From Streptomyces colonosanans (GTDB lineage Bacteria; Actinomycetota; Actinomycetes; Streptomycetales; Streptomycetaceae), in contig NZ_MLYP01000010.1 of NCBI RefSeq assembly GCF_001866645.1, positions 1 to 64,000 of the forward strand: DNA of 64,000 nt. Direction: 5' to 3'. The translations under genes and the position numbers were made by a program. The notes beneath the pieces were generated by a model that saw only the letters and a program-made list of their open reading frames with translations, was not told where the DNA came from and searched no databases. Of this stretch, positions 21,970 to 37,508 are shown piece by piece. Each line of letters starts with the position of its first letter. Positions within the stretch are counted from its first letter, which is position 1.

Positions 21970-22175
21970 AGGCCGCAGGACCCCCACCGGCGAACCTCGC
22001 CGGGCCGCGCGGCCTCCGCCGAGTCCGGTGCGCCCCCCGGCAACCGGAGCCGGGGACCCACACCGACCTTGGGGTGAATCGGCCAACCGCCTTGCGCGGC
22101 ACGGCCGTAGGGCACACCTTCCGGAACCCCCGCCCGAACCCGACAGCTAACCCGGTAGGCGGAGCACGGAAGGAG
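21970..22175 (+). promoter_or_regulatory. c-di-AMP riboswitch (ydaO/yuaA class)
   Basis: The leader of the NlpC/P60 gene holds the conserved blocks of the ydaO riboswitch as I know them from Streptomyces rpfA: GGGGACCCAC (22053-22062), TTGGGGTGAATCGG (22069-22082), GTAGGG (22107-22112) and CGAACCCGACAGCTAACC (22135-22152), followed by GGTAGGCG. The gene's ribosome-binding site GGAAGGAG lies directly after it. In actinobacteria this riboswitch lowers expression of resuscitation factors and cell-wall hydrolases when c-di-AMP is high. The outer boundaries are approximate. Confidence 0.88.
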
Positions 22176-22184
22176 TCGCCTCCC

Positions 22185-35343: not shown

Positions 35344-35371
35344 TGGACACCGTCCGCGACAGCGGCATACT
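35344..35371 (+). promoter_or_regulatory. Promoter of the chorismate mutase leader transcript
   Basis: TGGACA (35344-35349) and CATACT (35366-35371) separated by 16 bp form a good housekeeping promoter. The expected start point, 7 bases past the -10, coincides with the A of ATG 35378, so the leader-peptide mRNA is probably leaderless. Confidence 0.7.
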
Positions 35372-35377
35372 GGGCTC

Positions 35378-35449
35378 ATGCTCACGCACACGACCTTCCT
35401 CTTTACCTATGGCAACCGGCCCGCCGGCTGCCATGGTCGTGCTGCTTGA
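35378..35449 (+). CDS. Candidate Phe/Tyr leader peptide (23 aa) for chorismate mutase
   Basis: A 23-codon ORF, MLTHTTFLFTYGNRPAGCHG followed by RAA and TGA. It holds an aromatic cluster Phe-Leu-Phe-Thr-Tyr in which the second Phe is TTT and the Tyr is TAT, both rare codons in Streptomyces. It starts at the predicted transcription start point of a good promoter and is followed by a strong hairpin and then a chorismate mutase gene. Chorismate mutase makes prephenate, the precursor of Phe and Tyr, so the codons match the pathway. This is the classical layout of ribosome-mediated attenuation. The peptide itself would have no other function. I did not find a convincing antiterminator by eye. Confidence 0.65.
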   Translation: MLTHTTFLFTYGNRPAGCHGRAA

Positions 35450-35468
35450 GCCACTGCCAAGCAACTTC

Positions 35469-35505
35469 CCAGGCGCCCCGGGCCAACATGGTCCGGGGCG
35501 CCTGG
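35469..35505 (+). terminator. Attenuator hairpin before chorismate mutase
   Basis: A 16-bp stem (35469-35484 with 35490-35505, a single G-U pair, loop AACAT) lying 20 bases after the leader stop codon and 57 bases before the chorismate mutase ATG. Very stable; no T-run, as usual in Streptomyces. It is well placed to terminate transcription before the structural gene. Confidence 0.75.
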
Positions 35506-35561
35506 CGTATGCGGACCGTGCCGATCCGGGGCATCTCATCCCGACTCCCGAGGAGCCCCGC

Positions 35562-35861
35562 ATGACCGCGATCACCGAACAGTCGGCCACCGAGAAGACC
35601 GGCGCCCGCACCCGCGAGGCCGCCGGCGTGATCTCCGGCGCACGCGAGCGCATCGACGCGCTCGACGACCGGATCATCGGCCTCGTACAGGAGCGCATGG
35701 CGGTCTCCGCCGTCATCCAGGAGGCCCGTATCACCTCCGGCGGCCGCCGGGTGAACCTCTCCCGCGAGATGGAGATCCTCGGCCGCTACCGGAAGGAGCT
35801 CGGCAAGCCCGGCACGACCCTCGCGATGACCCTGCTCGAACTGTGCCGAGGCCGCGTCTGA
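35562..35861 (+). CDS. Chorismate mutase (AroQ class)
   Basis: Encodes 99 residues, typical for a monofunctional AroQ mutase. Helix one has RERIDALDDRIIGLVQERM with the conserved Arg and the Leu-Asp-Arg-Ile pattern, and the second conserved region is VNLSREMEILGRYRKEL. It rearranges chorismate to prephenate in the cytoplasm, at the branch to phenylalanine and tyrosine. GAGGAG lies 6 bases before ATG 35562. The leader ORF and hairpin upstream suggest attenuation by charged tRNA-Phe or tRNA-Tyr. Confidence 0.93.
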   Translation: MTAITEQSATEKTGARTREAAGVISGARERIDALDDRIIGLVQERMAVSAVIQEARITSGGRRVNLSREMEILGRYRKELGKPGTTLAMTLLELCRGRV

Positions 35862-36482: not shown

Positions 36483-37508
36483 ATGAAGCTTCGCCGTGCA
36501 CTGGCCGCAGCGGCGGCCACGGCCGCCATAGCCCCGCTCGCGCTGCTGTCGGCTCCGGCCGCGTTCGCCGACGACACGGAGACGCCTTCCGCTTCCGTGA
36601 CCGAGTCCGCCCCGGAGCAGCCGACCACCCCCGAGCCCGAGAACAGCACCACGCCGCCTGCCGAGAACACCGAATCCACCACCCCGGCCGCGACGTCGCC
36701 GGCCCCCGAGACGTCGGCGCCGGAGTCCACGGCGCCCACGGCTACGCCGTCCGCCTCGGCCACCACCTCGGCCAAGCCGACGTCGACCGCGAGCCCCGAG
36801 CCGACCGACGAGCCGACCGAGCCGTCCGGTATCTGCGAGGAAGACGACGCCACCTACAAGTCGAAGCTGAACACCACGATCAACGGCCTGCCCGGCAAGA
36901 TCGTGGCCGGTAGCGGCTGGCACCCCTTCACGCTCACGGTCAAGAACCCGACGAAGAGCGCCGCCCAGGACGTCATCTTCTACGCGGGCGTCGGCCCGAA
37001 CGACGAGAACGCGCAGAACCCCTTCAAGGCCAGCCAGGTCCAGCTCCAGGCGAAGGTCGACGGAGTCTGGGTCGACATCGAGGACGAGGGCTACTCCGTC
37101 GGCTTCCTCGACCTGTCCGACGTCGGTGCGGGCAAGACGGTCAACTACCAGCTGCGCCTCAACGTGAAGGCGAACGCCCCGATCGGCACCGGTCTGACCA
37201 TCGGCGGCGGCGTCTACTTCGACGAGGAGGCGGAGTGCCTCGGCGCTGACGAGGCCCACTACATCATCGAGATCGTCAAGGGCGGCACCGACACCGACGG
37301 CACCAGGCCGCAGGAAGGCGGCAAGGTTCCGGTTCCCACCGGCAAGCCGAACCAGACCAACACCCAGCAGGTGACCGGCACGCTCGCGTCCACCGGTTCC
37401 TCGTCCATGCTGCCGACCATCGCCCTCATCGGCGGTGTCGCGGTCGTCGCCGGTGGCGGTGCCGTGTTCGCCGTCCGCCGCCGCAAGACGGGTGGCGTGG
37501 CCGCCTGA
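36483..37508 (+). CDS. Sortase-anchored surface protein (LAxTG sorting signal)
   Basis: Encodes 341 residues. A signal peptide (APLALLSAPAAFADD) is followed by a Thr/Pro/Ser-rich spacer of ~85 residues, a folded domain at about 118-265 with the phrase FTLTVKNPTKSAAQDVIF that resembles immunoglobulin-like conserved-repeat domains, and a second spacer. The C-terminal sorting signal is complete: LASTG at 301-305, a hydrophobic span 310-330 and RRRK at 333-336. LAxTG motifs are the substrate of class E sortases in Streptomyces. Two Cys (SGICEEDD and AECLGAD) may form a disulfide. GAGG lies 5 bases before ATG 36483. Function on the surface is unknown; it may be a hypha- or aerial-growth-related wall protein. 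Confidence 0.9.
   Translation: MKLRRALAAAAATAAIAPLALLSAPAAFADDTETPSASVTESAPEQPTTPEPENSTTPPAENTESTTPAATSPAPETSAPESTAPTATPSASATTSAKPTSTASPEPTDEPTEPSGICEEDDATYKSKLNTTINGLPGKIVAGSGWHPFTLTVKNPTKSAAQDVIFYAGVGPNDENAQNPFKASQVQLQAKVDGVWVDIEDEGYSVGFLDLSDVGAGKTVNYQLRLNVKANAPIGTGLTIGGGVYFDEEAECLGADEAHYIIEIVKGGTDTDGTRPQEGGKVPVPTGKPNQTNTQQVTGTLASTGSSSMLPTIALIGGVAVVAGGGAVFAVRRRKTGGVAA

Follow-up and report, generated by a model that had tools for sequence, protein, structure and literature searches.

A conserved, predicted leaderless Phe/Tyr leader peptide and candidate transcription attenuator upstream of chorismate mutase in Streptomyces

In the pheL-pheA and trp attenuators of Escherichia coli, the control codons are located at the start of strand 1 of an RNA with alternative 1:2, 2:3, and 3:4 pairings, the start of the leader peptide has a Shine-Dalgarno sequence, and the target uses chorismate. 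The leader analyzed here, which precedes a chorismate mutase gene of Streptomyces colonosanans, resembles these systems in control codons that open strand 1, in its alternative pairings, and in a chorismate-using target. It differs from them in its predicted leaderless start, in having fewer control codons, in an extra hairpin (H2) within the antiterminator, and in the absence of a T run in this genome. Among mycobacteria, leaderless polycysteine ORFs were reportedly described by Canestrari et al. in 2020 as cysteine-responsive attenuators. Like the element described here, these ORFs are leaderless, short, and actinobacterial, whereas their signal would be cysteine and not Phe/Tyr.

The closest known system is the aroR leader of Corynebacterium glutamicum, which contains Phe-Tyr-Phe and, as stated in an excerpt of a review citing Neshat et al. 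2014 (PMC11802643), controls aroF by ribosome stalling. The same excerpt names the E. coli pheL-pheA and trp attenuators and states that the availability of Tyr did not act on aroR-aroF; in excerpts of another study, the aroR leader was replaced by a promoter (PMC7356990). As far as these excerpts describe it, aroR-aroF shares with our locus an actinobacterial leader peptide, an enzyme of the aromatic pathway as target, and ribosome stalling. In contrast, its target is a DAHP synthase and not a monofunctional chorismate mutase. Within the genus, the available portion of Droste et al. 2021 (PMC8079986) reports eight leaders from S. lividans TK24 (alaL, ilvL, thrL, trpL1, trpL2, leuL1, leuL2, and metL). 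Seven of these are described there as leaderless and several are followed by hairpins, as here; unlike the chorismate mutase leader, none of the eight is for Phe or Tyr, and the words chorismate and phenylalanine are absent from the available main text. For actinobacterial Phe or Tyr operons, Seliverstov et al. 2005 found no conserved upstream RNA structures according to the available part of their survey (PMC1262725), a gap that the leader described here would fill for nearly the whole antibiotic-producing genus. That part also cites codon changes without effect in a similar-looking leader of S. coelicolor ilvB, which counts against an attenuation reading. No description of a chorismate mutase leader was found in literature titles and abstract openings among the matches listed; the leader peptide strings had no literature text match, and the same held for DAHP synthase leaders in Micromonospora. 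Chorismate is likewise unmentioned in the main texts of five Streptomyces transcriptome studies (PMC8780764, PMC6742748, PMC8914203, PMC4895711, and PMC4681348). The principle of attenuation is classical, and what sets the present element apart is its predicted leaderless start, an antiterminator that encloses H2, and an unusual fixed TTT.

The window, i.e., the whole stretch of 64,000 nucleotides analyzed here, covers positions 1 to 64,000 of contig NZ_MLYP01000010.1 (assembly GCF_001866645.1). At the locus, a promoter, a short leader ORF whose translation is predicted, and a putative terminator hairpin follow each other in the arrangement of trp/phe-type attenuators (Table 1). A sequence-only reading of the window had proposed a promoter TGGACA-16-CATACT whose start point falls on an ATG, and both hexamers were recovered at the coordinates it gave. 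Six bases separate the end of CATACT from the ATG at 35378, and therefore transcription is expected to begin with the A of this codon. A -10-like hexamer was detected 6–7 nt 5' of the start codon in all scored chorismate mutase leaders (156/156), using a regular expression that tolerated gaps of 5–8 nt and several hexamers; 12 rows with a spacer of 5 represented TACTNT tails of a CATACT at distance 7 (judged by eye for L116 and L234). Because the -10 element sits 6–7 nt before the start codon, leaderless translation of the ORF would fit. The -35 element is weakly conserved. The earlier reading had further described a 23-codon ORF with rare TTT and TAT codons, which was borne out: in 36 long window ORFs chosen by length and GC3, TTT accounts for 9 of 356 Phe codons (2.5%) and TAT for 32 of 341 Tyr codons. 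Another long ORF, which shares the reading frame of the chorismate mutase gene (35409–35861), was not retained because its changes between relatives look non-synonymous by eye.

The hairpin, which had been read as 16 bp located 20 bases after the stop codon, has 17-nt arms with 94% complementarity and a 3-nt loop, and starts 19 nt past the stop. It is followed by cgtatgcgg and thus no T run in the window genome, while many relatives carry GTTT or GTTTT there. The chorismate mutase gene, expected 57 bases further on, begins 56 nt past the hairpin with the ATG at 35562. Its product scored 33.3 bits against Pfam CM_2 (cut-off 27), 119.3 bits against NF005894, the NCBIfam chorismate mutase equivalog (cut-off 73), and 58.1 bits against TIGR01808 (cut-off 52.15). 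The enzyme acts in the pathway of the amino acids that the leader would sense. A second CM_2 domain with a better match (83.7 bits) is encoded elsewhere in the same genome (C116:38250–38486), and hence the window gene is not the genome's only chorismate mutase domain.

Table 1 Positions of the leader, its predicted RNA strands, the target gene, and neighboring features in the window
Feature	Position	DNA strand	Basis
Promoter -35, TGGACA	35344-35349	+	read in sequence
Promoter -10, CATACT (16-nt spacer after -35)	35366-35371	+	read in sequence
Leader peptide ORF, 23 codons + TGA, predicted leaderless	35378-35449	+	peptide MLTHTTFLFTYGNRPAGCHGRAA*
Control codon Phe-9 (TTT)	35402-35404	+	codon conservation
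Control codon Tyr-11 (TAT), overlaps first bases of strand 1	35408-35410	+	codon conservation
Strand 1 (ATGGCAACCGG), 5' arm of hairpin H1	35409-35419	+	inverted repeat I4, pair count, own-partner test
Strand 2 (CCGGCTGCCATGG), 3' arm of H1 and 5' arm of antiterminator	35424-35436	+	folds, own-partner tests
Hairpin H2 (TGCTTG / CAAGCA), inside antiterminator	35443-35463	+	inverted repeat I17, own-partner test
Strand 3, 5' arm of terminator, also pairs with strand 2 in antiterminator	35469-35485	+	folds
Strand 4, 3' arm of terminator	35489-35505	+	inverted repeat I1, both-side pair changes
GAGGAG, likely ribosome-binding site of chorismate mutase	35550-35555	+	sequence
Chorismate mutase, 99 aa, monofunctional, Pfam CM_2 (type II)	35562-35861	+	Pfam and NCBIfam
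c-di-AMP riboswitch (RF00379), ordinary	22021-22176	+	59.4 bits, gathering score 38
Divergent upstream gene, putative GMP synthase guaA	33591-35282	-	translation
Protein with signal-like N-terminus and LASTG near C-terminus	36483-37508	+	

The chorismate mutase gene was detected in 148 of 150 genomes of the genus (all except G103 and G114), and upstream sequence was taken from 130 of the 148. Among the 130 genus loci examined, 129 possess the leader; L047 is cut by a contig end and stands outside the genus count. The string TTTACCTATGGC occurs exactly in 124 of the 130 upstream regions. For codons and the -10 element, we scored 165 of 177 sequences, comprising a first set (L001–L130) and a second set (from L188 on; 33 leaders outside the genus as well as L211 and L212 from inside it). 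The remaining twelve (L047, L092, L102, L106, L108, L110, L113, L118, L120, L218, L229, and L235) were left unscored for reasons of the regular expression or of the sequence. With Tyr numbered 0 and the control Phe -2, codon -2 was TTT in 119/121 first-set and 34/35 second-set chorismate mutase leaders, and codon 0 was TAT in 120/121 and 33/35, respectively. Hence, in the conservation check that the sequence-only reading had suggested, its refuting condition, free variation of the ORF or its aromatic codons beside a constant hairpin, did not hold. The exceptions were TTC in L130 and L230 and a lost Phe in L125, and TAC in place of TAT in L127, L216, and L217. One unscored leader (L235 from G159) has TTC for Phe and Gln in place of Tyr with persisting hairpins, and is perhaps decaying. 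Codon -4 encodes Phe in 108/121 first-set leaders and is TTC in each of these (108/108). Since the last two bases of TAT open strand 1, the constancy of this codon is explainable by pairing in H1. TTT takes part in none of the helices in the model, and its constancy therefore points to the codon itself.

When the own genome was searched with a covariance model built on the leader, one strong match was obtained (E = 6.6e-26); a second copy was looked for there, and one weak full-length match (L134, E = 0.196) contained no recognizable leader. At E ≤ 0.1, the model matched 213 of 249 genomes of the family and 155 of 394 genomes of the class, many of the weak matches probably being hairpin look-alikes. 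In a gene search covering 20 genomes picked by model score, and thus serving as a consistency check and not as a random sample, all seven genomes with a match of E = 3e-5 or better had the gene and an upstream leader (L229–L235). Ten of eleven genomes with a weak match (E = 1.8e-4 or worse) or no match lacked the gene, and the eleventh (G361) carries it at a contig end. The other two of the 20 (G103 and G114) had already proved to lack the gene in the genus search. Among 12 additional weak matches from the class, L280, L282, L283, L287, and L288 showed a leader on the strand read, L286 had one on the other strand, and six had none.

The hairpin is the strongest structure of the locus, as would be expected if it were merely a constitutive terminator behind an unrelated small gene and chorismate mutase were transcribed from elsewhere. 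We consider this reading quite unlikely. The identity of random pairs of genus members was 88.8% in the leader core (128 leaders) versus 48.2% in the spacer between hairpin and gene (118 leaders), with 61.3% upstream of the promoter (127 leaders) and 81.3% in a chorismate mutase coding stretch (128 leaders), and a leader core more conserved than the gene itself argues against it. So do the co-occurrence of gene and leader, in genomes picked by leader-model score, and the complementarity of strands 2 and 3 to their own partners, which is kept across genera.

This complementarity became apparent from folding. The sequence-only reading had reported no antiterminator by eye; computationally, one was predicted, formed by strands 2 and 3 with H2 between them. 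When strand 1 was removed and the RNA was folded to the end of strand 3, strands 2 and 3 formed a long hairpin enclosing H2, and strand 2 engaged 40% or more of strand 3 in all chorismate mutase leaders folded in this way (42/42). Mutually exclusive 1:2, 2:3, and 3:4 pairings were thus predicted in the chorismate mutase leaders. The fold tests used 57 hand-picked divergent sequences, 52 of which were scored; the terminator step failed for L097, L104, L209, L210, and L212. L229, with a misplaced terminator, was omitted, as were L235 and L218 from the tests that required a Tyr anchor, and L211 counted as a genus member in the final tests. The fold of the 142-nt leader had a z-score of -8, and none of 200 shuffles was equally stable. 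Among 31 representatives, both sides had changed in 7 of 16 terminator pairs, and H1 and the terminator jointly had 8 such pairs compared with 4.3 in shuffles (0/500 as high).

Native combinations of 5' and 3' halves had a mean energy of -25.65 kcal/mol, compared with -23.16 kcal/mol for chimeras between species (0/1000 permutations as low, 42 leaders; 0/1000 for 24 leaders outside the genus and 10/1000 for 18 leaders within it). In the own-partner duplex test with 41 leaders, none of 2000 permutations equaled the native 2:3, H2, or terminator pairing, while H1 gave 2/2000 and 3/2000 in two runs. All four pairings yielded 0/2000 outside the genus (23 leaders), and weaker results were obtained within it (149/2000 for strands 2:3, 57/2000 for H2, and 384/2000 for H1; 18 leaders). 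The permutations of both tests take no account of relatedness. In L130, the strand pairing appears by eye to be rewritten, with GGTTGTCATGGGGAGT facing ACTCCCCGACGCC. Column covariation in a cross-genus alignment fails to support the 2:3 pairing (134/500 shuffles as high), because both strands are nearly invariant; on the same alignment, in which MAFFT does not align H2, RNAalifold predicted no pair. A duty in two alternative helices for strands 2 and 3, together with coding by strand 2, would explain this near-invariance.

In an occlusion model, each leader was folded to the end of strand 3 while a ribosome masked the RNA from 12 nt before the P site to 13, 15, or 17 nt beyond it. Using the 15-nt footprint on 41 leaders, the share of strand 3 engaged by strand 2 was 0.64 for a stall at Phe (-2), 0.73 at -1, and 0.62 at Tyr (0), and past Tyr it was 0.25 at +1, 0.11 at +2, and 0.02 at +4. 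Earlier stalls still allow the 2:3 pairing (0.40–0.47 at -8 to -4 and 0.62 at -3). The values depend on the footprint, as the share at Tyr drops to 0.45 with 17 nt and that at +1 rises to 0.50 with 13 nt. Of the 11 nt of strand 1, the ribosome covers none at -4, 3 at -3, 6 at -2, 9 at -1, and all 11 at 0. From this coverage and the 2:3 shares together it follows that the kept codons sit where H1 is blocked and the antiterminator is allowed. In the occlusion model, Tyr is close to the downstream limit of stalls that would permit the antiterminator, and we infer that H1 would form first when the stall is earlier than the Phe/Tyr codons. The complete window leader at equilibrium always favors the terminator (-56.9 kcal/mol with a stall at TTT), and the antiterminator has -35.8 kcal/mol in window RNA ending at strand 3. 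Because the terminator is the more stable form once strand 4 exists, the choice between the two folds would have to be kinetic. With the ribosome at the stop codon of the window leader, 14 of the 17 bases in strand 3 remain paired with upstream sequence, weakly (-20.0 kcal/mol).

In 13 of 35 scored second-set leaders and in none of 121 first-set leaders, a Trp codon lies in the H1 loop (GTGWSGCH; L188, L189, L191, L192, L194–L196, L198–L201, L205, and L215, with L229 added by eye). A stall at this codon blocks the antiterminator in the model. An opposite Trp signal was nevertheless not adopted as the principal interpretation, since the Phe/Tyr codons precede the Trp codon and the leader terminates by default.

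Based on comparative evidence, the element is very probably a ribosome-mediated transcription attenuator of chorismate mutase. The Phe/Tyr attenuation put forward in the sequence-only reading thus gained support from the conserved codons, the predicted antiterminator, and the placement of the codons relative to strands 1 and 2, all of which were computed here together with the alternative pairings. In the proposed mechanism, RNA polymerase would initiate at the first base of the leader ORF, the A of its start codon, and the leaderless message would be translated by a ribosome following behind. With ample Phe- and Tyr-tRNA, the ribosome would reach the stop codon, strand 2 would be masked or re-paired with strand 1 in H1, and strands 3 and 4 would form the terminator ahead of chorismate mutase; termination in vivo would then leave a short transcript. 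If Phe- or Tyr-tRNA became scarce, the ribosome would wait at TTT-9 or TAT-11 and mask strand 1, so that strand 2 could pair with strand 3 around H2 as antiterminator and the gene would be read. Expression would in this way respond to Phe and Tyr.

Five leaders of the genus (L072, L079, L092, L102, and L106) are frameshifted just past Tyr-Gly, where the downstream RNA is kept and the peptide is lost. This argues for a function of the RNA and against an arrest peptide, i.e., a nascent chain FTYG..P.GCHG that would stall the ribosome on a metabolite and not on uncharged tRNA. For each of Gly, Cys, and His behind the Pro, 113/121 first-set leaders retain the residue, as such a chain would lead one to expect. 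However, second-set leaders differ in the residues past Gly, and the kept synonymous choice of TTT over TTC is needless for a peptide sensor. An arrest peptide thus appears very unlikely. The very high conservation of the RNA in the genus and its several alternative helices would also suit a riboswitch with Phe, Tyr, or prephenate as its direct ligand, in which case the ORF would be incidental. Across genera, however, the loops and H2 vary by eye in sequence and length while the codons stay, and the leader matches no known riboswitch, T-box, or other Rfam family at the gathering threshold (a permissive scan gave 35 matches, each under its gathering score), so that we regard direct ligand binding as highly improbable.

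Attenuation by Phe/Tyr codons may extend to other targets, as leaders with similar codons (e.g., MQRNFWRFYGYRP in Nocardiopsis) also occur in other families, ahead of either chorismate mutase or DAHP synthase. In family f17, MQRNFWRFYGYRP-type leaders stand before a gene with an N-terminal DAHP synthase ferredoxin-like domain (one member tested), and a pattern search located 35 leader loci (L237–L271) in Nocardiopsis, Streptomonospora, and relatives, judged by the leader alone. FWRFYGYRP leaderless leaders with a strong H2-like hairpin were observed in L218–L227, L287, and L237–L271, of which L218 differs (YFFRYDRP). By likeness to the f17 gene, L280 (FFSYG) putatively precedes a DAHP synthase, and by likeness to P0001, the genes behind L282, L283, and L288 (FFFYG, SFFYG, YFYG, by eye) may be chorismate mutases. 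The leaders of DAHP synthase have a strong H2 (17/2000, 8 leaders), and their occlusion profile shows no change ahead of Tyr; a 2:3 antiterminator was not established in them (3/9 leaders reach 40%, own-partner test 366/2000, chimeras 66/1000). A tentative idea, which we think rather doubtful, is that a single ancient actinobacterial RNA device has been passed on between the DAHP synthase and chorismate mutase steps and senses the decoding of U-ending TTT/TAT, and so tRNA supply or modification and not only the amino acid level. In the own genome, five loci were taken for PDT, DAHP synthase II, and the additional chorismate mutase, and a simple regular expression detected no leaderless short ORF upstream of them.

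The leader points to attenuation as the control of the chorismate branch point, and it offers a simple target for raising aromatic precursors. With a fixed TTT in a genome that nearly always uses TTC, codon-level sensing is directly testable. Apart from the leader and its target, the window contains a c-di-AMP riboswitch, a divergent gene upstream of the promoter, and a gene downstream of chorismate mutase (Table 1). With its signal-like N-terminus and LASTG motif, the protein encoded by the latter resembles a sortase-anchored surface protein.
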